The translations under genes and the position numbers were made by a program. Positions 21,932-37,564 of a stretch of DNA of 64,000 bases are shown here, piece by piece (position 1 is the first letter of the stretch; the number at the start of each line of letters is the position of its first letter). The stretch is from Celeribacter baekdonensis (GTDB lineage: Bacteria; Pseudomonadota; Alphaproteobacteria; Rhodobacterales; Rhodobacteraceae). The notes under the pieces were generated by a model. That model was not told where the DNA came from, searched no databases, and worked only from the letters and a program-made list of their open reading frames with translations. The stretch spans positions 62,001 to 126,000 of the forward strand of contig NZ_FNBL01000006.1 of assembly GCF_900102315.1 (NCBI RefSeq), read 5' to 3'.

Positions 21932-21958
21932 CAGACATGAATGTGGAGGAAAATACAC

Positions 21959-22948
21959 ATGATCATCAAGGCCACTCGCCTCACCGTTGCCGCAGCTTTG
22001 CTTGGCGCATCCACCTTTGGCGCATTTGCTGAGGGTTTCACCCCAGAGAACCCTGAATGTATCGCCCCCGCCAACCCCGGTGGCGGCTGGGATTTCACCT
22101 GCCGTCAGGTGGGGAAAGCACTGCAAGACCTCGGCCTTATCGAGAAAACCATGCAGGTCGTGAACCTCGCCGGGGGCGGTGGTGGTGTGGCCTATGCCGA
22201 AGTCGTCAACAAGCGCGCCGATGACAACGATCTGATTGTGGCCGCCTCCTCTGCAACAGCAACCCGTCTGGCTCAGGGCGCATTCCCCGGCAACACCATG
22301 GACCAAGTCCGTTGGTTGGCCTCGATTGGTGCCGATTACGGCGTGATCGCCGTCGCCAAAGACAGCGATATTGCCGATCTTCCGGCGCTGCTTGAGATGA
22401 TCAAAACCGATCCGCGCTCTGTGTCCGTTGCGGGCGGGTCCGCCGTGGGCGGTTGGGACCACCTCAAGGTCCTGATCGCGGCCAATGCTTATGGCATCGA
22501 CGATGTGCGTACCGTGAAATACATCGCTTTTGATGGCGGCGGCGAGGCGGTGACCCAGCTTTTGGCTGGCTCTGTTCAGGCCTTCACCGGCGATATTTCC
22601 GAGGCCAAAGGCTTTGTCGACAGCGGTGACATCCGTGTGCTCGCCGTGCTCTCGCCCGAGCGTCTTGGTGGTGAATTTGCCGAATTCCCGACGGCAAAAG
22701 AGCAGGGTGTGGATGCCATCGGTGCCAACTGGCGCGGCTTTTATGCGCCGGGCGACATGAGCGACGAAGCCTATGACGCATGGGTCTCAAAAATCGCTGA
22801 TCTCTATGCCACACCTGAGTGGAAAGAAATCATGGCGAACAACGGCATGGCACCGCTTGACCTGCAAGGTGCCGCCTTCGAAACATTCGTCTCCGAGAGC
22901 GTTGCGCAAATTCAGGCGATTTCGAAAGACATCGGCATCATCAAATAA
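21959..22948 (+). CDS. tctC: TctC tripartite tricarboxylate-binding protein
   Basis: A 329-residue periplasmic binding protein of the TTT (tripartite tricarboxylate transporter) family. A Sec signal spans about residues 1-25 (VAAALLGASTFGAFA). The mature protein begins with the family feature FTPENPECIAPANPGGGWDFTCR. GGAGG sits nine bases before the ATG at 21959. It would present citrate or another di/tricarboxylate or aromatic acid to TctBA. A GC hairpin follows the stop, which probably keeps tctC mRNA more abundant than tctBA. Confidence 0.93.
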   Translation: MIIKATRLTVAAALLGASTFGAFAEGFTPENPECIAPANPGGGWDFTCRQVGKALQDLGLIEKTMQVVNLAGGGGGVAYAEVVNKRADDNDLIVAASSATATRLAQGAFPGNTMDQVRWLASIGADYGVIAVAKDSDIADLPALLEMIKTDPRSVSVAGGSAVGGWDHLKVLIAANAYGIDDVRTVKYIAFDGGGEAVTQLLAGSVQAFTGDISEAKGFVDSGDIRVLAVLSPERLGGEFAEFPTAKEQGVDAIGANWRGFYAPGDMSDEAYDAWVSKIADLYATPEWKEIMANNGMAPLDLQGAAFETFVSESVAQIQAISKDIGIIK

Positions 22949-22973
22949 GCCATTTGGTTTGTGATGATGTGAC

Positions 22974-22998
22974 GGGCGCCGCATCTGTTGCGGCGCCC
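22974..22998 (+). terminator. Intercistronic hairpin between tctC and tctB
   Basis: GGGCGCCGC (22974-22982), a seven-base loop and GCGGCGCCC (22990-22998) form a nine-pair stem with no T run after it. In binding-protein operons such hairpins protect the upstream message or partly terminate, so more binding protein than permease is made. Confidence 0.75.
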
Positions 22999-23047
22999 AG
23001 CTCATATCCCCACCGGTCCGTTTCCACATCCTCCAAAGGAGATCCCC

Positions 23048-23479
23048 ATGAGTGATCGTATTTTTGGTTTGGTTGGCCTGCTTATTGCCATCGGCTTTGC
23101 CTTTGCCGCCTTGGCGATTGAGGAAAGTTTCCTCTCCGATGCCGTTGGTCCCAAAGCCTTTCCGCTGATCATTGCCACCATCCTCGGCCTCAGTTCCATT
23201 GCCATCGCACTTAAGCCCGACGACGCGCCCACTTGGCCAAGCCTCGGTCGCTTCGCGGAAATTCTCGCGGCGGCTGTGGTTATGATGCTGTATGCAGAAT
23301 TGCTTCCCGTCTTGGGCTTTGTGATCGCCACGGCCTTTGCCGCCGCCTATCTGACATGGCGGCTTGGATCGGGCATGGTGGCCACCGTGCTGACCGGTGT
23401 CGGCACCTCGGTTGGGATTTATGTCATCTTTCACCTCGTGCTTGGCCTGTCGCTCGCGCGCGGCCCGCTTGGGTTTTAA
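23048..23479 (+). CDS. tctB: TctB small permease subunit
   Basis: A 143-residue protein with four hydrophobic helices (about 5-24, 35-55, 75-100 and 115-140), the size and topology of TctB, the small membrane subunit of tripartite tricarboxylate transporters. The start at 23048 follows AAAGGAGATCCCC. It lies between tctC and tctA, twelve bases before the latter. Sequence in this family is poorly conserved, so assignment rests on topology and context. Confidence 0.88.
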   Translation: MSDRIFGLVGLLIAIGFAFAALAIEESFLSDAVGPKAFPLIIATILGLSSIAIALKPDDAPTWPSLGRFAEILAAAVVMMLYAELLPVLGFVIATAFAAAYLTWRLGSGMVATVLTGVGTSVGIYVIFHLVLGLSLARGPLGF

Positions 23480-23491
23480 AGGACCACCATC

Positions 23492-25033
23492 ATGGACACT
23501 TTCATGTCTCTCGCGGACGGTTTTGCCATTGCACTGACGTGGCAGAACATCCTTTTGGCCCTGTTGGGCTGTTTTCTTGGCACCATCATGGGCGCGCTTC
23601 CGGGCCTTGGTCCGTCAAACGGCGTGGCGATTTTGATCCCGCTGGCCTTTACCCTTGGTCTTGGGGCCACGCCCTCGCTGATCTTGCTGACGTCTGTCTA
23701 TTACGGGGCGATGTATGGCGGGCGGATTTCGTCCATCCTGCTCAACATTCCCGGCGATGAACCGGCGATGATGACCTGTCTCGACGGCTATCCAATGGCG
23801 CAAAAGGGCATGGCGGGGCAGGCGCTGTCGCTTTCTGGTATCGCCTCTTTCGTCGGTGCGTTTTTTGCCACTTGGGGCCTGATTTTCCTTGCGCCGCAGC
23901 TCGTTAAAATTGCGCTCTTGTTTGGCCCTGCCGAATATTTTGCGCTGTTCGCCTTGGCTTTTATGACCTTGGGCGGCGTGTCTTCGACCAACCAAGCCAA
24001 ATCGGCCTTCGCCGCAGCACTCGGTCTTGGCTTTGCGATGATTGGCGTTGACACCCAAACCGGCGTGCCGCGCTTTACCTTTGGCGAAGTGCACCTCTAT
24101 GACGGTTTGGATTTCCTCGTCGCCATCGTTGGCCTGTTTGCGCTCTCCGAAGTGTTCATCTTTTTGGAGCACCGTCATGGTGACGCAGACGGCACGGCGT
24201 CGAAAATCAAAGTCGGACGTCTGACGCCGCCACTTTCAATGCTCAAACAAACCACGCCGACGATGATCCGCTCCACGCTCTTGGGCTTCTTGGCGGGGGT
24301 CTTGCCGGGGGCAGGGGCCTCGCTCGGGTCTTTTATCGCCTATTCGTTTGAAAAACGGTTGGTGGACAAGGACGGCAAGACCTTTGGCAAAGGCGATCCG
24401 CGCGGCGTGGCCGCGCCCGAGGCCGGCAACAACGCTGCCGCCGGTGGCGCGCTTGTGCCGATGTTGGCGCTGGGTGTGCCGGGGTCAGGCACCACGGCCG
24501 TGTTGTTGGCGGTGCTGTTGTCGCTCAATATCACGCCGGGCCCGCTGTTGTTCTCGCAAAACCCGGATGTGGTTTGGGGTCTGATCGCGGCGCTTTTCAT
24601 CGCCAACTTCATGCTTTTGGCGATGAATATCCCGATGGTCGGCCTGTTCACCCGCGTGCTGATGGTGCCGCCGCGTATCTTGATGCCGGTTGTCGCCATG
24701 GTGTCTTTCGTCGGCATCTACGGCATTTCGGGGTCGTCCTTTGACCTGTTGGTCATGGTGGGGTTCGGCATGTTGGGTTGGATCTTGCGCAAATTCGATG
24801 TGCCTCTGGTGCCGATCATCCTTGGTACCTTGTTGGGCAATGCGATGGAAAACAACCTGCGCCGCGCGATCACCATCGACAACGGCAATTGGTTGACCTT
24901 GGTCGATAGCCCGCTGTCGATCACATTGTGGGTGATCGCCATCGTCGGGTTTATTTTGCCGCTGATCATCGGTCGCAAAGTGAAATCGAAAATGCACGCC
25001 CGGCGTGACGAAGAAGGCTCTCTTGCCGACTGA
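23492..25033 (+). CDS. tctA: TctA large permease subunit
   Basis: A 513-residue membrane protein with about twelve helices and the two duplicated TctA signatures: GTIMGALPGLGPSNGVAILIPLAF near residue 30 (here quoted in part) and LAGVLPGAGASLGSF near 270, plus NNAAAGGALVPMLALGVPGSG. It carries out sodium- or proton-coupled uptake of the ligand bound by TctC. The ATG at 23492 follows AAAGGACC. A strong terminator stands shortly after its stop. Confidence 0.95.
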   Translation: MDTFMSLADGFAIALTWQNILLALLGCFLGTIMGALPGLGPSNGVAILIPLAFTLGLGATPSLILLTSVYYGAMYGGRISSILLNIPGDEPAMMTCLDGYPMAQKGMAGQALSLSGIASFVGAFFATWGLIFLAPQLVKIALLFGPAEYFALFALAFMTLGGVSSTNQAKSAFAAALGLGFAMIGVDTQTGVPRFTFGEVHLYDGLDFLVAIVGLFALSEVFIFLEHRHGDADGTASKIKVGRLTPPLSMLKQTTPTMIRSTLLGFLAGVLPGAGASLGSFIAYSFEKRLVDKDGKTFGKGDPRGVAAPEAGNNAAAGGALVPMLALGVPGSGTTAVLLAVLLSLNITPGPLLFSQNPDVVWGLIAALFIANFMLLAMNIPMVGLFTRVLMVPPRILMPVVAMVSFVGIYGISGSSFDLLVMVGFGMLGWILRKFDVPLVPIILGTLLGNAMENNLRRAITIDNGNWLTLVDSPLSITLWVIAIVGFILPLIIGRKVKSKMHARRDEEGSLAD

Positions 25034-25147: not shown

Positions 25148-26056
25148 TTAAAGGGCGAGGCCCTCCCGGCGGGTTTTGAAGTCCATCACATGTTGATCCA
25201 GCACGCTCCGTGATGGTGCTGACACTTCCGCCAGCGGCATCCGCACCAAAGCGGTATAGAGCCCGGCATTGGACAGAACGTATTTCACCGGGGCGGGGCT
25301 GTTTTCGATAAACATGGCATCGGCGATGTCGCGCAGGGCCTCGTGAATGTCCAAGGCGCGCAAGCGATCCCCTGCCTGCCAGGCTTTGTACAGCTCAACA
25401 CAGATTTCCGGGTCATAGTTCGAAAACACCGAGGTCAGACCACAAGACCCAAGCGCGTAAAACGCCAGCGCCAGACCGTCATCGCCACAGTGAATAGCCA
25501 GACCGGGCGCGGCCGTGCGCAGATCGGTCACGCGCGACGGCGCGCCTCCGGCTTCTTTGATCGCGACGATGTTGAGGTGACGCTGGGCCAGGGCACCGGC
25601 GGTGTCCGGGGCAATCTCGACCCCCGCCCGACCGGGCACAGAATAGAGCACGACATCGGCTGTGGTTGCATCGGCCACCGCAGAGAAATGGTTGAGCAAC
25701 CCCTGTTGTGAGGGCTTGTTGTAATATGGAGTGACGATCAAAACGCCATCGACGCCAAGTTCGGTTGCGCGCTGTGTCGCGGCTATCGTTTTGGCTGTGG
25801 AATTGGACCCGGTGCCGGCCAAAACATAGGCTTTGCCCTTGGCGCGTTTGACCGTATGCGCGATGAGCGCATCGGCTTCCTTAGAGGTGAGGGTCGCCGC
25901 CTCGCCTGTGGTGCCGACAGGTACGAGGCCAGTGATGCCAGCGGCCAGTTGGCGGTCAATCAACCTGTCAAAAGCGACCCAGTCGATATCGCCGGATTGG
26001 GTGAAAGGGGTGATGAGGGCGGTGAAAACACCGTCAAAGCGAGACAGATCGGACAT
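25148..26056 (-). CDS. DapA/N-acetylneuraminate lyase superfamily protein (HTPA synthase-like)
   Basis: A 302-residue class I aldolase very like 4-hydroxy-tetrahydrodipicolinate synthase. It keeps VGTTGEAATL (48-57), YYNKP (111-115), the catalytic tyrosine Y138, the arginine of PGRAG, and the Schiff-base lysine K167 in VAIKEAGG. GGAG precedes the ATG at 26056. It is the last gene of a minus-strand catabolic operon with a DapB-like protein, ALDH and amine oxidase subunits, so it need not make lysine. It could condense or cleave an oxo-acid with pyruvate, or dehydrate/deaminate like hydroxyproline-pathway relatives. A housekeeping dapA elsewhere would support this. Confidence 0.8.
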   Translation of the reverse strand: MSDLSRFDGVFTALITPFTQSGDIDWVAFDRLIDRQLAAGITGLVPVGTTGEAATLTSKEADALIAHTVKRAKGKAYVLAGTGSNSTAKTIAATQRATELGVDGVLIVTPYYNKPSQQGLLNHFSAVADATTADVVLYSVPGRAGVEIAPDTAGALAQRHLNIVAIKEAGGAPSRVTDLRTAAPGLAIHCGDDGLALAFYALGSCGLTSVFSNYDPEICVELYKAWQAGDRLRALDIHEALRDIADAMFIENSPAPVKYVLSNAGLYTALVRMPLAEVSAPSRSVLDQHVMDFKTRREGLAL

Positions 26057-26067
26057 GGGATTCTCCA

Positions 26068-26754
26068 TTAGGATGCAAGCAAATCTTTGGGGGCGTAAAG
26101 GCCATTGGCGCGTCCAACGAGCCAAAGGGCGGCCTCAACCGCACCGGCGGCATAGGCGGCGCGGGTGCGCACATTCAGTTCAAGGCGCAGCGTGGCGATT
26201 TTGTAATCCAGAACAACGGTGGTGATACCAGCCGTATCCCCGATGCGCTGGATGTCGAGATCGACCTCTTTGCCGGTGATCTCAGCAAGCTCGGCACTCA
26301 GCCGTTTGGTGGTGCCGGAGGCGGCCATTTTCTTGTCGGCTTTATAGACCTCTCCCACCGTAATCGCGGCCTCTGGCAAGGCTTTGCTCAGGGCAAGGGC
26401 TGCGGCGGCGAAGGCTTCAAACCCTTTGGTGAAATTGGCGCCGATCAAGAGGGCGCGGTGGTTCGCTTCGGCGTGAAGGCGCGCGGTTTGATCGGCGGAA
26501 AAACCTGTTGTGCCAATGATCACTGGCAAAGAGGTGCCTTGAAGATGGTCCAAAAGTGTCATGACCGCATCCGGTGTGGAAAAATCAATCACAACATCCG
26601 TGCCTGTGAAATCGGCTTCGGCCAATGTCAAAGTGGAGCCTGTGCCAGAGGCCGATATCGCCTGTGCCAGGGTGGCGTGGTCTGTTTCCGTCAGCAGGGC
26701 GCAGACCTCGCGCCCCACTTTACCTGTCGCGCCAAAAACCGAAATATGTGTCAT
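26068..26754 (-). CDS. DapB-like dihydrodipicolinate reductase homologue, non-canonical active site
   Basis: A 228-residue protein, about 40 residues shorter than typical DapB. The Rossmann N-terminus has GATGKVG (8-14), VVIDFSTP and IIGTTGFS. The C-terminus keeps RIGDTAG and AYAAGAVEAALWLVGRANGLY. The usual HH-x-x-K-x-D-x-P-SGT motif is replaced by EVYKADKKMAASGTT (135-149): the paired histidines are missing while a lysine, aspartate and SGT stay. GAGG lies six bases before the ATG at 26754. It lies between DapA-like and ALDH genes in a catabolic operon, so it probably acts on a related cyclic imine rather than in lysine synthesis. Confidence 0.75.
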   Translation of the reverse strand: MTHISVFGATGKVGREVCALLTETDHATLAQAISASGTGSTLTLAEADFTGTDVVIDFSTPDAVMTLLDHLQGTSLPVIIGTTGFSADQTARLHAEANHRALLIGANFTKGFEAFAAAALALSKALPEAAITVGEVYKADKKMAASGTTKRLSAELAEITGKEVDLDIQRIGDTAGITTVVLDYKIATLRLELNVRTRAAYAAGAVEAALWLVGRANGLYAPKDLLAS

Positions 26755-26762
26755 CTGCATCC

Positions 26763-28160
26763 TCAATCTATCACAACCTTGGTTTCGCTCATTTCGCGCA
26801 GCGCGATGCGGACCCCTTCGCGGCCAAGGCCGGATTTGCGCACCCCGCCAAACGGCACATGTTCGACCCGGAAATCGGGACCTTCGTTGATCATGACGCC
26901 ACCGACTTTGAGCTGACGCGAGGCCAGTTTGATCGCCTTATGATCATTGGTATAAACCCCGGCCTGAAGCCCAAATCCCGCCGCGTTCACTTCGCGGATC
27001 GCGCCCGAGAAATCGGTGAAGCTGCGGATGGAAATCACCGGACCAAAGGTCTCTTCGCTCATCAGTTTGGAGCGCGGATCAACGCCATTCATCACCACCG
27101 GATCAAAATGGGTGTGCTGACGTCGGCCTCCGGTCAACACATGCGCGCCTCCGGCCACGGCCGCCTCAATCCGAGCTTCGATTTCAATCGCAGAGGCGGC
27201 GTCAATCACCGGCCCCATGATGGTGGCGGGATCAGAGGGGTCGCCCATGCCGACATTGGCCACCAGCGCCAAAAGACGGTCGGTGAATTCGGCTTCAATC
27301 GCCTCATGCACATAGAGCTTTTTGACCGCAGCACAGCTTTGCCCAGCGATTTCATAGCGTTGCGCCACAGCGGTTTTCGCCGCCGCCTCAAGATCGCCAT
27401 CGGGCAGGACAAACAGCGGATCGTTGCCGCCCAATTCCATCAAACACCGGACAAGGCCAGAGGCGTTTTTGAGCGCAAGGCCCGCGCCGGGGCCACCCGT
27501 GAAACTCAACAGGTCAATCGGGGCCTTGGCCAAGGCGGTCGCGGCCTCTGCGCCACCATGGACGATCTGAATCAGGTCTTTCGGTGCGCCCGCCTCGTCG
27601 CACAGGTCCATCAGTATCTGTGCCGCAAGCGGGGCTTTGGGTGAGGGTTTGGCGATCACTGCATTGCCTGCCGCGATCGCCGGGCCGAGTTTGTGACACA
27701 ACAGGTTCACCGGGTAATTGAACGGTGTGATCGCGGCGACGACGCCGACCGGCTCATAGGTGATCACGGCCTGACGATCAGGGCCGCCTGCCACGATCCC
27801 GGTGTGCAAGACGTCGCCATCCAGAAACGTCGCCGCATCGCCCGACAGGCGCAGCGTGTTTTGGGCACGGCGGATCTCATTGCGCGCTTCGGTGATGGTT
27901 TTGCCCATTTCCTGCGACACCGTCTGCGCCAGGTTTTCCGCATCTTGTCCCATCAGATCGGCGATCCTGTTCAACAGGGCGCGGCGTTCATGCGGGGTGG
28001 AAAACCGAAAGGCGTCGGCGGCTTTCGTGGCGTTGGCGACGATTGTCTGGATCTCTTCGGCGCTGGTTTCATGCACCTTGCCGACGAGGCTGTTGTCATA
28101 GGGATTGCGCACTTCAAACTCTTGAAGGGCCGCGATGGAGGGAGATTGTACGTTCATCAT
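26763..28160 (-). CDS. NAD(P)-dependent aldehyde dehydrogenase
   Basis: A 465-residue aldehyde dehydrogenase with the asparagine of PFNYP (N148), glycine motif SFTGGPGAG, general base E242 (MELGGND) and nucleophile C276 (AGQSCAAVK). The spelling resembles phosphonoacetaldehyde, lactaldehyde and succinic-semialdehyde type enzymes more than betaine aldehyde enzymes. Its ATG overlaps the stop of the FAD subunit gene. In the operon it would oxidise the aldehyde released after imine opening or retro-aldol cleavage, for example aspartate, glutarate or succinate semialdehyde. Substrate not determinable. Confidence 0.87.
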   Translation of the reverse strand: MMNVQSPSIAALQEFEVRNPYDNSLVGKVHETSAEEIQTIVANATKAADAFRFSTPHERRALLNRIADLMGQDAENLAQTVSQEMGKTITEARNEIRRAQNTLRLSGDAATFLDGDVLHTGIVAGGPDRQAVITYEPVGVVAAITPFNYPVNLLCHKLGPAIAAGNAVIAKPSPKAPLAAQILMDLCDEAGAPKDLIQIVHGGAEAATALAKAPIDLLSFTGGPGAGLALKNASGLVRCLMELGGNDPLFVLPDGDLEAAAKTAVAQRYEIAGQSCAAVKKLYVHEAIEAEFTDRLLALVANVGMGDPSDPATIMGPVIDAASAIEIEARIEAAVAGGAHVLTGGRRQHTHFDPVVMNGVDPRSKLMSEETFGPVISIRSFTDFSGAIREVNAAGFGLQAGVYTNDHKAIKLASRQLKVGGVMINEGPDFRVEHVPFGGVRKSGLGREGVRIALREMSETKVVID

Positions 28161-29464
28161 TTGAGGTCCTGGTGAGAGGGGTCCGCGGTGAAATCGGGCG
28201 CATCAAGGATGTCGCGCACGCGGACGGGTTTGATGGGCCAGCGATTGCCGCGAAGATCGGCAAAGCTGGTGGTGTCGGGAGTGAGGGCTGCGACCCAATC
28301 GAGGCATTGACGGCCTTGACAGGGCCCCATGCCAAACCGTTCGGTGAGGCGCAGGGTGCGGGCCGTTGTTTGGGTTTGCTCTGAGGCTGTCTGAAGCGCC
28401 TGTTTCAGATCACCCAGACTGCGGTTTTCGCAGCGGCAGATGACGGTGTCGTCTGGCAATTCGGGAGCTGCAAGCGCGGGCGCACGGGCAAAGAGTTTGG
28501 CGAGCAGGGTTTGCGTTTTGATAAATCTCTGATCAGGCGCAATCGCCGCCCGACCTGGCGTCGCGTTCAAGGCGTGTAGGACCTGTTCAGCGGCACGTTT
28601 GCCATCTTCTTCGGCGGCCCAACGCCCCAGAACGGATCGGCAATCTCCGGCCTGAAATACGGGCGTTTGCCCCGTCATTTCGGCACTGATGCCAAAGTCA
28701 TTGCGTGCCAACCCGTCATGCAAACCAATGTGGTCCACACTGATTTCGGCCCAGCGACCCTGACGGCTGGTGTGAGCGATCAACGCCCCGTTGCGCGTCT
28801 CAATCCGGGTCAAATCCGTCCCCGAAAGAATCGGAACGCCTGCAAGCAGAAGTTGCCCGATATAGCGCGTGGCTTCGGTCAAAACGCGGGCGGGCAAACG
28901 CAGAGCCATCAGAGGGTGGCGCAGCGGGTTCCCGGTTTCGATCACCGCGACAGGCGGGCGATCTGCCGCCACCATTTGAGCTGCGATAGCATACAGCAGT
29001 GGGCCGGTGCCGGCCAAAAGAAGACGCCCCAAAGGCAATGTGCCTGTGGTTTTAAGCGCGATTTGCAGCGCCCCGGCACTGCTCACCCCGGCCAGGGTCC
29101 AACCGGGACGGGGCTGAATGCGTTCGCGCGCGCCGGTGGCGAAAATGACGGCGCGGGGTTTGAACATCATGCCAGCCTGCCCCGTCAGTAGGGCTGTGCC
29201 CGTCTGATCGAAGGCGGCGAAGGCGGTCGACAGGCGTAGATCAACACGCGGACGAACGCGGTCGAAATCCTGACGCAAGATGCGGGCTTCTCGGGTCAGT
29301 TTCGGCGTCAGATTTGGTTGGGCGCGCAAATTGGCATAAACGGCCCCGCCGATGCCCGGTGCATGGTCGACCAAAACGGGGTGAAGCCCCGCGTCGGACA
29401 ATGTGATGGCGGCCCGCAACCCGGCGGGGCCAGCGCCGACAATAAGGGGGCGGGTGTCAATCAT
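28157..29464 (-). CDS. FAD-dependent oxidoreductase subunit with C-terminal BFD-like [2Fe-2S] motif
   Basis: A 435-residue protein with an FAD-binding GxGxxG (VGAGPAGLRAA) at the N-terminus, a second nucleotide motif (LLLAGTGPLLYAIA) and a C-terminal region with CRC then CQGRQC about 55 residues later, a BFD-like iron-sulfur arrangement. This is the alpha-type subunit of heterotrimeric hydrogen-cyanide synthase, opine oxidase and D-hydroxyproline dehydrogenases (HcnB/OoxA/LhpF-like). The start overlaps the ferredoxin-like gene, and the stop overlaps the ALDH start. Electrons from the DadA-like subunit would pass through it. Confidence 0.85.
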   Translation of the reverse strand: MIDTRPLIVGAGPAGLRAAITLSDAGLHPVLVDHAPGIGGAVYANLRAQPNLTPKLTREARILRQDFDRVRPRVDLRLSTAFAAFDQTGTALLTGQAGMMFKPRAVIFATGARERIQPRPGWTLAGVSSAGALQIALKTTGTLPLGRLLLAGTGPLLYAIAAQMVAADRPPVAVIETGNPLRHPLMALRLPARVLTEATRYIGQLLLAGVPILSGTDLTRIETRNGALIAHTSRQGRWAEISVDHIGLHDGLARNDFGISAEMTGQTPVFQAGDCRSVLGRWAAEEDGKRAAEQVLHALNATPGRAAIAPDQRFIKTQTLLAKLFARAPALAAPELPDDTVICRCENRSLGDLKQALQTASEQTQTTARTLRLTERFGMGPCQGRQCLDWVAALTPDTTSFADLRGNRWPIKPVRVRDILDAPDFTADPSHQDLK

Positions 29465-29732
29465 GGGCGCTCTCCGTCAGGCGGTGATCGGACAGGCTGC
29501 GCACGGATTGCTCCGCATCGCAGAGGGTCAGACAGGCTTCGGCCACACCGATGCCTTCGATTGACACCAGACAATTTTGGCACTGACCAATGCCGCAAAA
29601 AATCGCGGCGGGCAGCGCGGTTTGGCGCAGGCCAAACTCAGTGATCCCGGCCCGCGACAGTGCCGAAGCGATTGTATCGCCGGGGAGAAAGGCAATTGGA
29701 GTGCCATTCCAAAGGATGGTTTGGACGCTCAT
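29457..29732 (-). CDS. Small (2Fe-2S) ferredoxin-like oxidase subunit
   Basis: A 91-residue ferredoxin-like subunit with iron ligands C46, C51, C54 and C67 (C-x4-C-x2-C-x12-C, IFCGIGQCQNCLVSIEG). It matches the small subunit of HcnA/LhpE-type heterotrimers. The ATG at 29732 overlaps the stop of the DadA-like gene (ATGA), and its end overlaps the FAD/BFD gene, so the three subunits are made in stoichiometric coupling. The longer frame upstream is a shadow within the DadA-like gene. Confidence 0.87.
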   Translation of the reverse strand: MSVQTILWNGTPIAFLPGDTIASALSRAGITEFGLRQTALPAAIFCGIGQCQNCLVSIEGIGVAEACLTLCDAEQSVRSLSDHRLTESAHD

Positions 29733-30928
29733 GCTGGGATCGCCTCTTGTGATGAAAAACGTCCGGGGGTGAGGGCGGCAAGATCGGGGCTGGATTGCCC
29801 GGTTGCGAGGTGTGCGGCGATCTCGCGACCGATCAGGGCGGACAGGCAAATCCCATCGCCTTCAAATCCGGTGGCGCAGATCACATTCGGCTCTTCCGGC
29901 AGAGCACCGACAATCGGCAAACCATCGAGAGACGCGCTGCGCACGCCCGCAAAGACCCGAATGATCCGGCGCTCAGCCAGCCGTGGCAGACAGCCGACAG
30001 CGCTGTGCAGCAGGCGGCGCACGATGGCGATGTCTGTTTGCCGCTCCGTCCCATGATCTTCGCGGGTTGAGCCGATCAACACCTGCCCTGTGCGCAGGGG
30101 GTCGATGACGACGGGGAGACCGGCGTCACCGCGCCCGTTTGCCGTTTTATCAAGGAGATACGCGGCAGAGGTCAGCGGGCCGGGCAGGTTGGGTTCAGAT
30201 GCGGGGCCTCTGTCAGAGACAATCAACTGACCGGAGCGCGCGATCATCGGCACGTTTGGGAGGAGTCCCATGGTGCCAATGCCGGAGGCGATCACGAGCT
30301 GTGCGCAATTCATCTCACCCGCCGAGGTGAAAACCCGCACACCCTCGGGACCCGGCTCATAGGCTTCCAGGCTGCGCGGCCAAAAGAGATCGCATTTGGC
30401 GGCGCTCAGATAGGCATGGGTGGCTTGATAGCCGAGCATATGCGCCTCACCTTGCAGTTCGATCACCCGCGTGATGTCTTTGCCAAGGCCAGAAATGGCC
30501 GAGGTTTGCGCGGCCCCATCTTGGTGGATGGAGACGGAGAGGGACTGGTCGTGCAGCATGCGCGTCAGACGATCAAGTGCTGCGCTTTCGGGGGCGGAAC
30601 GGGCAAAGATAAACGTTGGCCGAGGGTGAAAAATGCCTTTTAAAATGCCGTTGTGTTGTGCCATCTCTCGCGCATAGCAAAGCGAGGCGTCGGCAAGGTT
30701 GGCCATGAGGCCTGGGCGTTTGGACGCGACCGAGACGGCCCCATCCGACGCGCCTGAGGCCGCGGCCGCCGGGCCCTTGGCGTCGATGACGGCGACGCGG
30801 AGACCCCGTTGGGTCGCGTGCCATGCCACGGAGGCGCCGATAATGCCGGCTCCGGCAATCACGAGGTCATATGAGTCTGTCGGCTGCACCAAGGTTGCTC
30901 CAATTTGGTTTGATCCAAGGTTGGGCAA
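29729..30928 (-). CDS. DadA/glycine oxidase-like FAD-dependent amine oxidoreductase (catalytic subunit)
   Basis: A 399-residue DAO-family flavoprotein. The FAD motif is IAGAGIIGASVAWHA (near residues 24-38). The C-terminal VFAGVRSASLDGLPIVG and ATGFEGDGICLSALIGREIAAHL are typical of DadA, sarcosine oxidase beta and opine oxidase B subunits. It should oxidise a D-amino acid, imino acid or N-carboxyalkyl amino acid. It is the first gene of the minus-strand operon, divergent from an amino-acid ABC transporter. The 22 residues before the FAD motif may be over-long; an exact start is uncertain. Confidence 0.85.
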   Translation of the reverse strand: MPNLGSNQIGATLVQPTDSYDLVIAGAGIIGASVAWHATQRGLRVAVIDAKGPAAAASGASDGAVSVASKRPGLMANLADASLCYAREMAQHNGILKGIFHPRPTFIFARSAPESAALDRLTRMLHDQSLSVSIHQDGAAQTSAISGLGKDITRVIELQGEAHMLGYQATHAYLSAAKCDLFWPRSLEAYEPGPEGVRVFTSAGEMNCAQLVIASGIGTMGLLPNVPMIARSGQLIVSDRGPASEPNLPGPLTSAAYLLDKTANGRGDAGLPVVIDPLRTGQVLIGSTREDHGTERQTDIAIVRRLLHSAVGCLPRLAERRIIRVFAGVRSASLDGLPIVGALPEEPNVICATGFEGDGICLSALIGREIAAHLATGQSSPDLAALTPGRFSSQEAIPA

Positions 30929-31165
30929 TTCCGGGTCTGATTTCGATGCAAATATATGCGGTTAAGATACAAAAAAAGTTGGAACAATTCTGTGTGCGCC
31001 CGATAAAGATCTGTGACATGTAAATTATTTTGTATATTTGCAGGATGATCTTGTATTGCCTGACGCCCCGATAACGGGTGCTTTGTAGCAAGGAAGCACG
31101 GGAACGCCGTTTTCTCAAAACGAAGTGGCAGCGCAAAAGCTGCCTTGTCCAACAAGGAGATCAGA
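30929..31165. promoter_or_regulatory. Divergent promoter region with paired inverted operators
   Basis: This AT-rich 237-base gap separates the oxidase operon and the ABC transporter operon. TGCAAATATA at 30947-30956 and its reverse complement TATATTTGCA at 31033-31042 are perfect copies in opposite orientation, 86 bases apart. Each is near the promoter of one operon. They are good candidates for sites of the LysR regulator at 34635, or for another repressor. An AAGGAG ribosome site for the binding protein lies at its end. Confidence 0.6.
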
Positions 31166-31999
31166 ATGAAGCTCAAGGCTTTTATTGGTGGCACGCTTGC
31201 AGCACTTGCCACGGCTGTGTCGATTGGCTCGGCGCAGGCACAAGACAGTAAGATTGATGAGATCCGCGAGCGAGGTACGTTACGCATGGCGGGGATTCTC
31301 AGCGAAGACCCGTATTTTGCGAAAGACCCGCGCACCGGCGAATGGCGCGGCTTTGCCGTGTCTATGGCGCGTGATATTGCCGAAACGCTTGGTGTGGAGT
31401 TGGAAGTTGTTGAAAGCAGCTGGAGCAACTCGATCCTTGATGTGCAATCGGGCAAAGTGGACCTCGCCTTGGCGCTCACCGCTTTGCCGAAACGCGCGAT
31501 GGCGATTTCATTCTCTGACCCGACCTATTACAACAGCTTCGTGATCATCTCCCCGAATGAGGCGCTTGCCGACAAGGGGTGGGCGGAGTTGAACGATCCG
31601 GCCTATACGATCGCGGTTGATCTTGGTTCTGCGCAGGACAATATCGCGCGTCAGTATCTTCCGAACGCAAATGTTCTTCGGTTCAAATCTCGTGATGAGG
31701 CGGTGATTGCGGTCACCACGGGCAAAGCGGACGCGATGATCAACACCGTGTTGAACTCTGTTGTCATGTCCAAAAAGAACCCGGCGCTTGGCACCGTTTA
31801 TGTCCCCGAACCCACCCTGTCATCACCCTCTGTGATCGGTTTGAATTACGACACAGATGAAACGTGGAAAGCCTTTATTTCCGCCTGGGCCGATTACAAT
31901 CGCCGTGTTGGCAACAACCAAACATGGATCGTCGAAAGCCTTGCCCCCTTTGATGTGACCCTGGACGATTTGCCTGAAGGGTTCGACATCGGCGGATAA
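31166..31999 (+). CDS. Polar amino-acid/opine family ABC solute-binding protein
   Basis: A 277-residue family 3 solute-binding protein. A signal peptide covers about residues 1-24 (ALATAVSIGSAQA). The mature part has RGTLRMAGILSEDPYF, GEWRGFAVSMARDIAETLGVELE and GKADAMINTVLNS, as in HisJ/GlnH/NocT binders. AAGGAG lies six bases before the ATG at 31166. It is first in an operon with one permease and one ATPase. A weak CGCGC/GCGCG hairpin after its stop (32025-32040) may limit read-through. Ligand unknown but should be the substrate of the divergent oxidase. Confidence 0.88.
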   Translation: MKLKAFIGGTLAALATAVSIGSAQAQDSKIDEIRERGTLRMAGILSEDPYFAKDPRTGEWRGFAVSMARDIAETLGVELEVVESSWSNSILDVQSGKVDLALALTALPKRAMAISFSDPTYYNSFVIISPNEALADKGWAELNDPAYTIAVDLGSAQDNIARQYLPNANVLRFKSRDEAVIAVTTGKADAMINTVLNSVVMSKKNPALGTVYVPEPTLSSPSVIGLNYDTDETWKAFISAWADYNRRVGNNQTWIVESLAPFDVTLDDLPEGFDIGG

Positions 32000-32068
32000 G
32001 CCTGTCTTCACCACTCACTCTCGGCGCGCTTTTTGGCGCGTCGACCTTACCTATATTCGAGGACCTCC

Positions 32069-32731
32069 ATGTATAACTGGGACTTCTACACGGTCTTTCA
32101 GTCCTTTGATCTCTTCTGGCACGGGCTGCTCACCACTTTCCTTTACACCATCGGCTCGATTGGCTTTGGCATCGTCATCGGACTTGTGACCGCCTTTGCC
32201 CGGCTGTCTAAATGGCGGCTGTTGCGCGGTGCGGCACGCACGTACCAAGAGGTGTTTCGCTGCACCCCTTTGCTCGTACAAATCATGTGGGCCTATTATG
32301 CTTTGCCGATGTTGCTGGGGATCAGCATACCGAACTGGATCGCAGGGCTGGCGACGCTCTCACTCTATGTCGGGTCGTTTTACGGTGAAATCTTTCGGGG
32401 TGGCATCAATGCAATCGACAAAGGTCAGCGCGAAGCGGCCATGGCGGTTGGCATGTCTGGCGGCCAAGCGATGCGCCACATCATCATGCCGCAAGCCGTC
32501 AAAAAGATGCTACCTGCGTTCATCAACCAGTCGGTTATTCAGGTCAAAAACACATCGCTCCTATACGCCATTTCCATCGCGGAACTGACCTATATGACTT
32601 ACATCGTAAACAGCGAAACCTACCGCCCGCTCGAAAGCTATTCGATTGCCGCGATCATGTATTTCGCCATGCTTTTCCCGCTCACCCAATTCGCCGATTA
32701 TTTCGAACGCCGTATGCGGCGCAGCGACTGA
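32069..32731 (+). CDS. Amino-acid ABC transporter permease
   Basis: A 220-residue HisMQ-type permease with five to six helices and the ABC-coupling loop [25 protein letters not shown] (key residues EAA and G, around 130-150). The start at 32069 follows GAGGACCTCC. Only one permease gene is present, so the channel would be a homodimer. It is followed after 20 bases by the ATPase gene. Uptake of a polar or cyclic amino acid across the inner membrane is expected. Confidence 0.9.
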
Positions 32732-32751
32732 ACCGCAAAAAGGACCCTGTT

Positions 32752-33510
32752 ATGACCACGCCTTCTATTCTTTCTGTGCGCGCGTTGACAAAAAGCTATG
32801 GCGAGCTTGAGGTACTCAAAGGCATTGATCTGGACATCACGCCGGGTGAGGTGATTGCCATCATCGGCCCGTCTGGATCAGGCAAATCCACCTTCATCCG
32901 TTGTCTCAACATGATGGAAGTGCCTACCTCGGGATCGTTTAAATTTCGCGGCAGCCATGTGTTGCCAGAGTTTAAGGACAAGGCGGGAACGCTTGGAGCG
33001 GGCACATTGAGGCGCAAGGTTGGGATGTGTTTTCAACACTTTAACCTGTTTCCCCATTTGACCGTTTTGGACAATGTCACCAAGGGTCCAAGGGTAGTTT
33101 TAAAAGAGAGCCAAGTTGAGGCCGAAGCTCATGCGCGCGCGCTTTTGGCCAAGGTCGGTCTTGCCGATAAGGAAAACTATTATCCCAGCAAACTCTCCGG
33201 CGGGCAAAAACAGCGGGTGGCGATTGCGCGATCTCTGGCGATGCGCCCGGATGTGATGTTGTTTGACGAGGTGACCAGCGCGCTTGATCCCGAACTGGTG
33301 TCTGAGGTTTTGCAAGTGGTGCGGGATTTGGCCGAGGGCGGGATGACCATGGTGTTGGTCACGCATGAAATGGCCTTTGCCGCGGATGTCGCGGACCGGG
33401 TGATTTTTATCGACAATGGTGTGATTGCCGAACAAGGCCCGCCGCAGGAGGTGATGCACAGCCCACAATCCGAACGGCTTCAACAGTTTCTTCAGCGATT
33501 TCACGCATGA
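32752..33510 (+). CDS. Amino-acid ABC transporter ATP-binding protein
   Basis: A 252-residue ATPase of the HisP/GlnQ class: Walker [10 protein letters not shown] (around 39-47), Q-loop [11 protein letters not shown], signature [16 protein letters not shown], Walker [13 protein letters not shown] and switch histidine LVTHEM. AAAGGACC precedes the ATG. Its stop overlaps the start of the lysine-dehydrogenase-like gene (ATGA), which ties import directly to metabolism of the substrate. Confidence 0.95.
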
Positions 33511-34604
33511 CCCGCCCCATGCCGCCCGCTGAAACTTGCAAAATCGTCATCGTCGGCGGTGGGCGCTCCGGCACCGCCATCGCGCGGGTGTTTGGCGCGG
33601 ATCGGGCCTTTTCGCCTCTTGTGCTGGATATCGACTATGACCGCGTGCGTCTTTTGCAGGCGGAGGGCCTGAATGCCGCACAGGTCAGCGGCACGGATTT
33701 AGACGGGATGGGGCGGGCTCTCAAGGGGGCGGCGGCGGTCATATGCGCTGCGCCGCCCTCCGTTGTGCCCAGCACCGCAAAAGCTGCGCGCGCGGCGGGT
33801 TGCGTGTATTTGGATCTGTGCGAAGACCCAAAAGCATTGCGCGAGGTGTTTGAGATCGCCGCAGGGGCGCAAACGCCCTTCGCGCCGGGCTGTGGTCTTG
33901 CGCCGGGGCTGATTTCACTCATGGTGGACGACCTTGTGGCTCGCAGCGGTCCCGAGGCAGAGATCACCGCCTATGTTGGTGTTTTGCCGGCCCAAAAAAC
34001 CAATCGTCTCGGCTATGGCAATATGTGGGACATTGAGGCGTTGATTGCGGAATATACCCAGCCCTGCGCTGCGTTGGCGGACGGTAAGGTGGTCGGCTTG
34101 CCGCCACTCGACAATCTCGAAACCGTGACCATTTCCGGCGAGACCTTTGAAGCCTTTACCACTTCGGGCGCATTGGATGCTTTGGTCTCGCACTATGAGG
34201 GCCGTTTGAAGGGGTTGACGTTTAAGACGCTGCGCTATCATGGGCACCTCGATTACATCTCGTTTCTGCTCGATGATCTGGGCCTGTCAAAGCGGCTTTA
34301 CCTTTTGCGCAACCTGCTTTTGACCGGGCTTGAACGGATCGAGGATGATCGGGTGATTGTGCATCTGACCTGCTGCGTTGGTGCGCAGGAACGGACACAA
34401 ACGCGGCTGTTCTCACCGCCAACACTGTCGCGGCAGACGCCGACGTCCGCCCTTGCGCATATTTCGGCGCATCATGTCTGTTCGGTGGCGGACATCCTCA
34501 TGCGTGGTCTTGCGCCGCGCAAGGGTCTGTTGCACCATGGCGATCTTTCACTTGAAATCCTTTCGAACTCTGCCTTTTCAAAGGCACTCTTCACCAACGC
34601 CTAG
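33507..34604 (+). CDS. Saccharopine dehydrogenase/lysine 6-dehydrogenase-like NAD(P) oxidoreductase
   Basis: A 365-residue protein with an N-terminal Rossmann motif ([17 protein letters not shown]), a [19 protein letters not shown] segment and a C-terminal dimerisation/substrate domain, matching the saccharopine-dehydrogenase-like group that includes lysine 6-dehydrogenase and opine-type dehydrogenases. The start overlaps the ATPase stop. In this locus it probably oxidises or reduces an amino acid or cyclic imine made by the divergent oxidase operon. True saccharopine dehydrogenase activity is unlikely without a lysine-ketoglutarate pathway here. Confidence 0.78.
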
Positions 34605-34634
34605 GGTCGCAAGGCTCTCACCGGGGAGCAAACC

Positions 34635-35552
34635 ATGTCCGAGAAACCGCGTATTGCGCAGACTCAAAAAATCGACATTTCGCTTTTGCAGACCTTTCAT
34701 TTGGTTGCAAAAATCGGGTCTTTTTCCGGCGCGGCGCGTGAACTCAATATTTCCTACCAATCCGCCGCCAATCATGTCCGACGGCTTGAGCAGCTTTATG
34801 GCACGCAATTGGTGAAGGCCGAAAAAGGCTCGCGCGAGATTGTTTTGACGGCTCCGGGGCGCGCTCTTCATGCTTCATTGGGGGCGGAACTTGACACGAT
34901 TTTCGCGCGGCTGTCGCTTTTGCTGCGAAATGTCCATTCGGTGATGCGGTTTGGTGTCCCGCAGGCGCTGTTTCATGCGTTCTTTCCCGAAATTGTCAGG
35001 CAGGTGAAAGAAACCCATCCCGATATGGAGCTGAATTTTTTTGAGCGCGACACGGTTCTGTCGTCGATGATGGTCAACGGCGAATTGGACGCCTGCGTTT
35101 GTGAACGTTTCTTTGGCGATGCCAGTATTTCGCAGGTTCTTTTGGGGCAATACCGTCTCGCCTTGGTCTATCCGCAACATTGGGCGCGCGACTACGCCTC
35201 AAGCAATGACCTCGCCTCTTTGCAACAGGAGAATTTTATCACCTACGAGCCGGGCCAAACCCTGCGCTCGCGGGGGATTGATTTCCTCACCAAGAAACTG
35301 GGCAAAGCGCCACAAAACATGACCACCGTCTCGGGTTCGACCTCCGTCATGGAGCTTGTCAGGGCCGGGATCGGGTATGCCATTGTGCCCGAATGGGTTG
35401 CCGAAGCGGCGGGAGAGAAGGTCAAATGGATCATTCTCGACGAGATGCAGACCGTAAAGGTCTATTTTGCCACGCCGGTTTTCTTGTCCGAGGACCCGGT
35501 GCTTGTCTTTACACGAGAAATTTGCCGCAACGTGATGGGGTTTCGGGTCTGA
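34635..35552 (+). CDS. LysR-family regulator of the amine/imino-acid catabolic locus
   Basis: A 305-residue LysR regulator: winged helix at about residues 12-70 (LLQTFHLVAKIGSFSGAARE, then SYQSAANHVRRLEQL) and a C-terminal effector domain with GIGYAIVPEWVAEAAG. It lies 30 bases after the dehydrogenase-like gene on the same strand, so it is probably co-transcribed with the transporter and autoregulated. Opine and amino-acid catabolic loci are often controlled in this way. The inverted sites at 30947 and 31033 are its likely targets. Confidence 0.88.
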   Translation: MSEKPRIAQTQKIDISLLQTFHLVAKIGSFSGAARELNISYQSAANHVRRLEQLYGTQLVKAEKGSREIVLTAPGRALHASLGAELDTIFARLSLLLRNVHSVMRFGVPQALFHAFFPEIVRQVKETHPDMELNFFERDTVLSSMMVNGELDACVCERFFGDASISQVLLGQYRLALVYPQHWARDYASSNDLASLQQENFITYEPGQTLRSRGIDFLTKKLGKAPQNMTTVSGSTSVMELVRAGIGYAIVPEWVAEAAGEKVKWIILDEMQTVKVYFATPVFLSEDPVLVFTREICRNVMGFRV

Positions 35553-35628: not shown

Positions 35629-36087
35629 TTATTTATTCCTATTTTGCTGTGCGAGATACGCCTCAAACGCCGCCAAAGTGCCCTCGGAAACGTGGTGTTC
35701 GATCCCTTCGGCGTCAAGTTCGGCGGTGGTTTCAGGCACGCCCACGGCGATGAGCAAGGCCACAACGCTGCGATGTCGCGCCCGCACCCGATCCGCCAGG
35801 GCCGCGCCGTCGTCGGTTAAGAAAACGCCGCGATAGGGGCGAGACGTCGCCAAGCCTTCGCGTTTCAGCCGGGCGATGGCTTTGGTGGCCGTGGGTTGCG
35901 CCACGCCCATGCGCTCGGCAATATCGGCCACGCGGGCTTCGCCATGCTCAGCGATCAGATCGCCGATCATCTCGACATAGTCTTCCAGCAGGGCCACGGC
36001 CTGAACTTCGCGGGCGCGGGTGAACCGATCGGCCTGCGAGGCACTCTGCTGTTCTGGTGGAAGATTGGGCGAAAGCGATGGGGCCAT
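35629..36087 (-). CDS. mntR: DtxR-family manganese regulator MntR
   Basis: A 152-residue Mn(II)-responsive repressor. The winged helix occupies about residues 35-95 (RVADIAERMGVAQPTATKAIARLKREGL), followed by the metal-binding dimerisation helix region with HRSVVALLIAVGVPETTAELDAEGIEHHVS, including the acidic/histidine residues EGIEHH. AGGAG precedes the ATG at 36087. It is divergent from mntH and the promoter region has an MntR box. It should repress mntH when manganese is plentiful. Confidence 0.92.
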   Translation of the reverse strand: MAPSLSPNLPPEQQSASQADRFTRAREVQAVALLEDYVEMIGDLIAEHGEARVADIAERMGVAQPTATKAIARLKREGLATSRPYRGVFLTDDGAALADRVRARHRSVVALLIAVGVPETTAELDAEGIEHHVSEGTLAAFEAYLAQQNRNK

Positions 36088-36117
36088 AGCGCCTCTCCTG
36101 TTCTGTTGGGAATTCTG

Positions 36118-36133
36118 TATAGCCTAGGGATGA
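36118..36133. promoter_or_regulatory. Imperfect MntR half-site upstream of mntR
   Basis: TATAGC-CTAG-GGATGA shares the left half TATAGC and four-base spacer with the strong box at 36226, but its right half is degenerate. It sits 31 bases before the mntR ATG and may allow weak autoregulation. Confidence 0.4.
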
Positions 36134-36225
36134 CTTTTTCACCAGCGTTTAGATGGAGTGCCAAAGGCGCGCGGGCCTGTTGCAGAGGGCATCGCCATTC
36201 AGGTCAGCTTTACTGTTGCAATAAG

Positions 36226-36241
36226 TATAGCGAAGGCTATA
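36226..36241. promoter_or_regulatory. MntR box upstream of mntH
   Basis: TATAGC-GAAG-GCTATA is a perfect six-pair palindrome, 34 bases before the mntH ATG. It matches the core ATAGC-N4-GCTAT of the MntR operator known from E. coli, where the protein is also of the DtxR family. With a DtxR-type MntR next door the assignment is strong. Confidence 0.82.
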
Positions 36242-36274
36242 AATCGGCGTGACATTTATTTGTAAGGCGCGTTC

Positions 36275-37564
36275 ATGCCCTCTCTCACAGATCGCACAAA
36301 ACAAGGCATTGCCTCTGTTCTCGCCGGGGACCGTGGCGGTTGGCGCGCGCGCCTGCTGTTCGCCGGGCCCGCCATTATCGCCTCGGTGGCCTATATGGAC
36401 CCCGGCAATTACGCCACGAACATCCAAGCCGGTGCGGGCTATGGCTATACGCTGTTATGGGTTGTGCTTTTGGCCAATCTGATCGCGATGCTGTTTCAGG
36501 CGCTCTCAGCGCGGCTGGGCATCGTGACTGGCAAAAACCTGGCGGAACTGTCACGGGACAATTTCCCTCGCCCGGTGGTTTGGATCATGTGGGCGATCAG
36601 CGAAGTCGCCGCCATGGCGACCGATTTGGCCGAGTTTTTGGGCGGTGCCATCGGGCTTGCGCTGTTGTTTGACCTGCCGTTGATGGTCGGAATGATCATC
36701 ACTGCCATCGTCACCTATGCGATCCTGATCTTTGAGGGCAGAGGCTTTCGCCCGATGGAATTGATCATTGGGGCGCTCGTAGCCGTCATTGGCCTGTGTT
36801 ATTTGGCCGAAATCATCATCGCGCCAATTGATTGGAGCGGTGCGGCCATGGGGATGATCACGCCGGAATTGCCCGATGCGGCGGCGCTGACCATTGCGGT
36901 CGGCATCATCGGGGCCACTGTGATGCCTCACGCGATTTACCTGCATTCGGGTCTGACGCAATCGCGTGCCAATGTGCGCAACGCCGCCGAGCGGCGCAGG
37001 GTTTTGAAATTTTCCAACACCGAAGTGGTGGTCGCGCTTGCGGTGGCGGGCATGGTCAATATGGCGATGGTGATGATGGCGGCTTCCGCCTTTCACTTGG
37101 GTCATTCGGATGTGGCCGAAATTGAAACCGCCTATCATACGCTCACGCCGCTTTTGGGCGCGGCTGCGGCGGGTATGTTCTTGGCCTCTTTGATTGCCTC
37201 TGGCATTTCAAGTTCGGTCGTCGGCACCATGGCGGGTCAGATGATCATGCAGGGTTTTTTGCATTTTCGTGTGCCGATTTGGATTCGCCGTTTGGTGACC
37301 ATGGTCCCGGCCTTTGCCGTCGTCGCCGCAGGCGTGAATGCCACCGACGCTTTGGTGATGTCGCAAGTCGTGCTCTCCATCGCCTTGCCCGTGCCAATGA
37401 TCGCGCTGATCATTTTCGTGTCGCGCCGTGAGATCATGGGAGAATTTGTGATCCATCCGGGTCTGCGCATCTTGGCCGGAGTGGGGGCCGTTGCGGTGCT
37501 GGGGTTGAACTTCGTGCTGTTGGCAGAGTTTTTTGGCCTCAGCATGCCGTTTCTTGCGGGATAG
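36275..37564 (+). CDS. mntH: NRAMP-family Mn(II)/divalent metal transporter MntH
   Basis: A 429-residue proton-coupled metal importer with eleven predicted helices. Helix 1 has the metal-binding DPGNYATN, helix 6 has TVMPHAIYLHSG, both typical of NRAMP proteins. GNYATNIQAGAGYGY and RGFRPMELIIG also match. It is divergent from mntR with an MntR box in between, so it is induced by manganese limitation. Iron or cobalt may be carried as well. Confidence 0.96.
   Translation: MPSLTDRTKQGIASVLAGDRGGWRARLLFAGPAIIASVAYMDPGNYATNIQAGAGYGYTLLWVVLLANLIAMLFQALSARLGIVTGKNLAELSRDNFPRPVVWIMWAISEVAAMATDLAEFLGGAIGLALLFDLPLMVGMIITAIVTYAILIFEGRGFRPMELIIGALVAVIGLCYLAEIIIAPIDWSGAAMGMITPELPDAAALTIAVGIIGATVMPHAIYLHSGLTQSRANVRNAAERRRVLKFSNTEVVVALAVAGMVNMAMVMMAASAFHLGHSDVAEIETAYHTLTPLLGAAAAGMFLASLIASGISSSVVGTMAGQMIMQGFLHFRVPIWIRRLVTMVPAFAVVAAGVNATDALVMSQVVLSIALPVPMIALIIFVSRREIMGEFVIHPGLRILAGVGAVAVLGLNFVLLAEFFGLSMPFLAG

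Follow-up and report, generated by a model that had tools for sequence, protein, structure and literature searches.

What task could enzymes of the DapA and DapB families, which serve lysine biosynthesis, perform in an operon shared with a flavin dehydrogenase? The question is raised by a locus of Celeribacter baekdonensis that occupies positions 25148-35552 of a 64,000-nucleotide stretch of contig NZ_FNBL01000006.1 (hereafter the window). An earlier note, made from the letters of this DNA alone, had read the locus as a catabolic one in which an imported compound is oxidized to an imine and then processed by the DapB-like, DapA-like and aldehyde dehydrogenase (ALDH) enzymes, and as a whole that interpretation is partly supported by the analysis reported here. 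At the level of sequence we found a conserved gene set, a dihydrodipicolinate synthase (DHDPS) active site without key feedback residues, altered sites in the DapB-like protein and in the substrate-binding protein (SBP), and separate housekeeping copies of dapA and dapB in the same genome. From these features we infer the substrate class, the order of the steps, the substrate of the ALDH and the direction of the DapA-like enzyme, and we propose, tentatively and with somewhat less than even confidence, that this is a dedicated catabolic locus through which a secondary-amine (imino- or opine-type) acid would be imported and broken down via the pyruvate/aspartate-semialdehyde node, the ALDH making aspartate.

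A rare but conserved gene block

The locus contains 11 open reading frames, whose coordinates and strands were verified, in two diverging operons (25148-30928 on the minus strand and 31163-35552 on the plus strand). Positions, strands and the Pfam domains of ten of the eleven proteins (all but the ATPase) agree with the gene content described before: DapA-like, DapB-like, ALDH and three flavin dehydrogenase subunits on one side, and on the other an ABC importer, a saccharopine/lysine-6-dehydrogenase-like enzyme (SDH) and a LysR-type regulator. The statement that most joints overlap or are shorter than 15 bases was made for the minus-strand operon, where it holds (11, 8, -4, -8 and -7 bases); those of the plus-strand operon measure 69, 20, -4 and 30 bases.

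Sixteen blocks of this kind were compared, namely those of the window, C. baekdonensis B30, a Rhodobacterales metagenome-assembled genome (MAG), G292, G428, Chelatococcus, Martelella, Pannonibacter, Ciceribacter, Ensifer, G1208, G1129, G1252, G1429, G1381 and G1394; a seventeenth, in G1363 (L097), was excluded, its contig ending before the ALDH, DapB and DapA genes. They span at least three alphaproteobacterial orders. The B30 copy is 95-100% identical to the window at the protein level, and the others share 33-80% protein identity with the window, so that chance does not account for the recurrence of the gene set. The binding protein, permease, ATPase (incomplete in the MAG), the three flavin dehydrogenase subunits, ALDH and DapA are present in all 16, as are SDH and LysR wherever the stretch read extends that far (14/14 and 15/15), the position and orientation of the LysR and importer genes varying among the blocks. 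Of the genes whose co-occurrence the earlier note had suggested looking for, those of the flavin dehydrogenase, the ABC system and dapA are in all 16 blocks and the DapB-like gene is in 12.

The block is rare but well conserved. A profile of the DapB-like clade scored above 180 bits only in the window's genome and G292 among 390 genomes of the window's order (next match, 39 bits), and above 320 bits only in the window's genome and G428 among 385 genomes of the class (next match, 128 bits). With the binding-protein profile the class again gave these two genomes, and a sample of 398 genomes of the phylum gave only that of the window at this score level, three more reaching 249-276 bits. In the order to which G864 belongs, 7 of 397 genomes matched; for the order of G428 a single genome was covered. 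DapB-like matches were also found in six plasmid records, one of which, from Tsukamurella, is weak, partial and annotated dapB. A second Pannonibacter strain (NZ_CP013069), outside the 16, has matches for the binding protein, SDH, DapA, DapB-like protein and flavin dehydrogenase beta subunit.

A DHDPS active site without key feedback residues

The DapA-like gene (25148..26056, minus strand, with an ATG start; a longer frame with a TTG start reaches 26125) encodes a protein with the Pfam DHDPS domain. By score (TIGR00674, 287.8 bits against a cut-off of 206) and by its catalytic residues it belongs among the 4-hydroxy-tetrahydrodipicolinate (HTPA) synthases. In a profile search the genome, which measures 4.44 Mb and is 99.99% complete, yielded four genes of the DHDPS family; the top score was 310 bits, with the window copy second at 264, and the 310-bit gene is likely the housekeeping dapA. 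A separate dapB scores 275 bits against the TIGR00036 cut-off of 122, the window copy reaching 60-86 bits. Since both housekeeping genes lie elsewhere, the dapA and dapB of the locus are extra copies, which bears out its earlier description as a dedicated, non-housekeeping locus. Another DHDPS-family gene of this genome (G000:C16:60667-61530, 104 bits) lies about 1.3 to 0.5 kb to the left of the window and lacks the catalytic pattern except for the lysine.

When the 16 block copies were aligned with the housekeeping copy (E. coli numbering), T44, T45, Y107, Y133, R138, K161 and G186 were retained in every one; the I203 position is Thr in 16/16, and the N248 position is Asn in eight and Ser in eight. 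According to PMC11201819, R138, which is strictly conserved among DHDPS enzymes, contacts the carboxyl group of an aldehyde-substrate analogue, and residues 53, 80, 84 and 106 contact the inhibitor lysine. At the lysine site S48 is Ala in all 16 block copies, H53 and H56 are never His, and the E84 position carries Lys in 13, Arg in two and Ile in one, whereas the housekeeping copy and the E. coli enzyme retain S48, H53, H56, N80, E84 and Y106. H56K and E84T are given as deregulating DHDPS in a table of PMC10464499, in which the labels of that row look garbled. The block DapAs form one clade (support 80). They thus share fold and catalytic residues with the DapA of lysine biosynthesis and differ from it at key lysine-feedback residues; judging from these residues, the brake seems to have been lost.

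The DapB-like protein as an altered accessory enzyme

The DapB-like gene (26068..26754, minus strand; a TTG start at 26766 is possible) encodes a protein with the Pfam DapB_N and DapB_C domains, and the earlier remark that a DapB homologue is unusual in such a setting still stands. Its AlphaFold model, built on a five-row alignment, has the DapB fold (pLDDT 83.3, pTM 0.74), and all of its 50 listed PDB matches are DapB-type reductases. The 12 block members form one clade with support 99, in a tree for which 14 of the 18 class loci L056-L073 were tried and 11 kept (L056, L059 and L069 were dropped) and 15 housekeeping sequences were compared. In all 12, His159 of E. coli DapB is replaced by Tyr and Asp165 is lost, Lys163 and the SGT motif being kept; His160 is kept in eight and Arg240 in four, whereas the 15 aligned housekeeping DapBs all have HH and Arg240. 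The window protein accordingly does not qualify as an HTPA reductase: its 85.8 bits lie below the family cut-off and the HH motif (159-160) is broken, although K163 is kept. Seven of eight further block genomes searched also have a dapB above the cut-off, and the block copies found there score 52-114 bits, below it. In the G1429 genome the profile search detected no member of the housekeeping dapB family, for which we offer only the assembly or another route. The G1129 genome has, besides its housekeeping and block copies, a third DapB-family gene (G1129:C4:11587-12363) at 161 bits, above the cut-off.

The gene is absent from the blocks of Chelatococcus, G1429, G1381 and G1394. In a concatenated tree of five proteins (1653 columns, rooted at the midpoint) the last three are on the same side as the window (support 98) and Chelatococcus is opposite (support 77), so that two losses are the simplest reading. 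The earlier note had given this protein a central step, a role that is not supported, because the gene is missing from four of 16 blocks and His159 is Tyr in 12/12; by these sequence features it is rather an accessory, altered enzyme, with the fold of the DapB of lysine biosynthesis and without its His159. A reversed DapB acting as a tetrahydrodipicolinate dehydrogenase would run strongly uphill with NAD(P)+, and was set aside on these general redox grounds. A racemase-like gene (PRK07475) is a neighbour of the block genes of Chelatococcus and G1429 (L043, L094), that is, it occurs in two of the four blocks without a DapB-like gene and in none of the other 12; it was rejected as a substitute, since four of seven DapB-like genomes searched carry PRK07475 elsewhere and there is no clean mutual exclusion. 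In G1429, G1381 and G1394 a short-chain dehydrogenase (SDR) follows LysR.

Import and oxidation

The family 3 binding protein (SBP_bac_3; 31163..31999, plus strand) is followed by a single permease of the polar amino-acid type (BPD_transp_1; 32069..32731, plus strand) and an ATPase (32752..33510, plus strand; named from sequence). The arginine that binds the ligand carboxylate (HisJ R77) is kept in all 16 binding proteins, and the position of HisJ D161, the Asp for the alpha-ammonium group, is Thr in all 16. Among the references this position is Thr in HypM and Ser in the nopaline protein NocT, and Asp in HisJ, ArgT and the binding protein of a homoserine locus. The replacement of Asp161 by Thr suggests a ligand that would lack an ordinary primary alpha-amine. 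Two other loci (L051 7852-15442 and L052 7817-15396) combine a 40%-identical binding protein with PRK07475 racemase-like, D-amino acid dehydrogenase-like and thiamine diphosphate (ThDP) enzymes.

The flavin dehydrogenase consists of an alpha-type (28157..29464), a [2Fe-2S] gamma-type (Fer2_4; 29457..29735) and a beta-type subunit (29729..30928, with a possible true start at a GTG at about 30889), all on the minus strand. The alpha-type subunit had been labelled FAD/BFD: the FAD/NAD fold (Pyr_redox_2) and a CxC...CxxxxC motif were found, but Pfam reported no BFD domain. This motif and the gamma-subunit cysteine spacing C-x4-C-x2-C-x11/12-C, with its four conserved Cys, occur in 16/16 blocks. 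The beta subunit belongs to the DAO superfamily (PF01266, 147 bits), HypO itself being a weak match. The genes follow the order B-C-A known from dehydrogenases of opines and D-hydroxyproline and reported for the flavin opine dehydrogenase OdhBCA (PMC4575208), in keeping with the earlier identification of an oxidase trio. The nearest trio outside the block, with about 41% identity in each subunit, lies on plasmid pB of Sinorhizobium meliloti (L075 7750-17760); its neighbours are a LysR gene, a dipeptide-type ABC system and an SDR.

SDH (33507..34604, plus strand; Sacchrp_dh_C and Sacchrp_dh_NADP) has as its best PDB relative 3abi (PH1688; E 6e-17), which we take to be an L-lysine dehydrogenase, an enzyme of the omega-amine; it matches no NCBIfam model. 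It shares its Sacchrp_dh domains and a length of about 365 aa with the L-lysine 6-dehydrogenase family (PH1688 and a Ruegeria homologue, L049), and forms a subgroup distinct from the homologues aligned, most block members having NRLGY...IDEY where three outside homologues have NALKY...INEY. The Ruegeria homologue adjoins ALDH and cyanophycin genes. The ALDH gene (26763..28160, minus strand; Pfam Aldedh) is predicted to encode a semialdehyde-oxidizing enzyme, for which we propose aspartate semialdehyde as substrate; compared with four reference ALDHs, the product is closest to that of the homoserine locus (37.7%), the others standing at 27.9-30.3%.

A proposed pathway and its alternatives

We propose that the ABC system imports a secondary-amine carboxylate (an imino or opine-type amino acid), that the membrane-linked flavin dehydrogenase oxidizes one C-N bond and the lysine-dehydrogenase-like enzyme a second, and that the carbon passes through the DHDPS-type enzyme at the pyruvate/L-aspartate-4-semialdehyde/HTPA node. 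DapA would split a 4-hydroxy cyclic imine dicarboxylate into pyruvate and aspartate semialdehyde. We favour this direction because the ALDH, in turning aspartate semialdehyde to aspartate, would pull the cleavage, and also in view of the lost feedback site. The DapB-like protein may be an accessory NAD(P)-dependent imine reductase, feeding, for example, an intermediate into tetrahydrodipicolinate and lysine. The succession of import, oxidation and ALDH step foreseen in the earlier note is supported, and the cleavage that it suggested, with pyruvate and aspartate semialdehyde as products, fits the DHDPS active site intact in 16/16 relatives. A partial precedent for this node in a catabolic setting is a homoserine-type locus on a Rhizobium sp. 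CB3060 plasmid (L109 5495-10335), where genes for homoserine dehydrogenase, ALDH, dapA and aspartate ammonia-lyase lie in a row: it shares the adjacency of dapA and ALDH, beside a dehydrogenase that makes aspartate semialdehyde, and differs in lacking the flavin dehydrogenase trio and the DapB-like gene.

Several points weigh against this proposal. DHDPS normally runs in the condensation direction, and we know of no established natural precursor that is a 4-hydroxy cyclic imine dicarboxylate. Two residues of the lysine site, N80 and Y106, are retained in 16/16 block DapAs, and the DapA of the homoserine locus retains the whole lysine site, so that the precedent is inexact. The best NCBIfam score of the ALDH is that of sulfoacetaldehyde dehydrogenase (444.8 against a cut-off of 700), so that aspartate semialdehyde is not what its family would suggest. 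Three related binding proteins of other loci have Val at position 161, and the comparison at this position covers two secondary-amine and three primary-amine reference proteins only. The structure model of SDH reaches a pLDDT of 30.3, because only two of the 14 known sequences entered its alignment.

The order of the trio, the PAAT importer and the LysR regulator are shared with the Ti-plasmid opine loci (noc) and OdhBCA, and an opine built from pyruvate and a diamino acid such as 2,4-diaminobutyrate might be split by the trio, SDH then acting on the omega-amine to give aspartate semialdehyde and ALDH giving aspartate, with the feedback-free DapA, working forward, and DapB draining pyruvate and aspartate semialdehyde to lysine or removing a reactive aldehyde. 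The kinship of SDH to PH1688, the Ser of NocT, the presence of dapA in the homoserine locus and the possibility that housekeeping DapB replaces the block protein in the four blocks without it would suit this account, which we nevertheless consider unlikely. The window trio is distant from NoxB (24.5% over 204 aa, E 4e-9) and NoxA (32.8% over 323 aa), low identities on which membership of a nopaline/octopine locus was rejected, the mechanism alone being kept. The block has one permease against NocQ and NocM, and DapA, DapB-like, ALDH and SDH genes in place of the arginase and ornithine cyclodeaminase of noc; moreover, a DapB without His159 would be odd for an enzyme that makes lysine. Literature searches on the degradation of opine-metallophores and nicotianamine gave no pathway.

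The trans-4-hydroxyproline pathway (4HypE, c4Hyp oxidase, Pyr4H2C deaminase, KGSA dehydrogenase) likewise combines a DAO-type oxidation, a DHDPS-family enzyme, an ALDH and an ABC importer, and PMC4113996 describes the use of the DAAO, DHDPS and ALDH superfamilies. A related route, in which the trio would yield the carboxylate of a hydroxy-pyrroline or hydroxy-piperideine, the DHDPS-family enzyme would dehydrate or deaminate it and the ALDH would oxidize a keto-semialdehyde, would agree with the Thr of HypM at position 161, but we regard it as improbable. The proline-racemase family (PF05544), to which its 2-epimerase belongs, has no match anywhere in the window's genome, confirming the earlier remark that an epimerase is missing (six of seven genomes searched have some match, none inside the block stretches). 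In addition, a tblastn search of the S. meliloti hyp region with the window DapA gave nothing at E 1e-4, HypD (recognized by gene neighbourhood, the record being unannotated) has S, M and Y in place of T44, T45 and R138, the HypH ALDH shares only 28% identity, and the block has DapB-like and SDH-like enzymes in excess. The hydroxyproline pathway itself was rejected on the epimerase and HypD results, and the hydroxyproline-like option of the earlier note is unlikely, for want of a proline-racemase-family gene and of a HypD-like DapA. Least probable is a locus for small-molecule modification or biosynthesis, making a dipicolinate- or diaminopimelate-like compound from imported precursors: dapA and dapB lie side by side and the catalytic residues of DapA are kept, but the importer, the respiratory-type flavin dehydrogenase and the ALDH point to breakdown, and no export or tailoring gene is conserved across the 16 blocks.

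A bolder form of the catabolic proposal, which we regard as doubtful, is that lysine-biosynthesis chemistry runs in reverse here, the brake-free DHDPS serving as an HTPA aldolase in the breakdown of a nutrient of the diaminopimelate or piperidine-2,6-dicarboxylate type into pyruvate and aspartate, and the Tyr-type DapB helping on the cyclic imine in most species. If true, it would add a new pathway to the catabolism of a class of bacterial cell-wall or spore-related compounds. The open-access literature searched contained nothing relevant on diaminopimelate catabolism and no description of this gene set, in line with the earlier note, whose author knew of no described pathway with exactly these enzymes. 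If the proposed pathway is right, a lysine-biosynthesis enzyme would have been recruited into catabolism with its feedback site dismantled, and the locus would mark a subfamily of DapB in which a catalytic residue has changed and for which the current dihydrodipicolinate reductase annotation is likely wrong. Some plasmid-borne block members carry the dapA annotation 'lysine biosynthesis', which the finding would correct. It would also point to a nutrient of marine and root-associated bacteria.

Other features of the locus and its surroundings

The divergent intergenic region (30929..31162) had no Rfam match, and its promoter-like matches are not above chance (two against 4.1 expected); a terminator scan gave 14 matches against 13.7 expected. 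The regulator gene (34635..35552, plus strand; LysR domains by Pfam) closes the plus-strand operon. Beyond it, at 35629-37564, a DtxR/MntR-like regulator (minus strand) adjoins an Nramp-like metal transporter (plus strand), and at 21941-25033 on the plus strand three genes of a tripartite tricarboxylate transporter-like system (TctC, TctB, TctA) converge with the end of the dapA operon, both groups being named from sequence.

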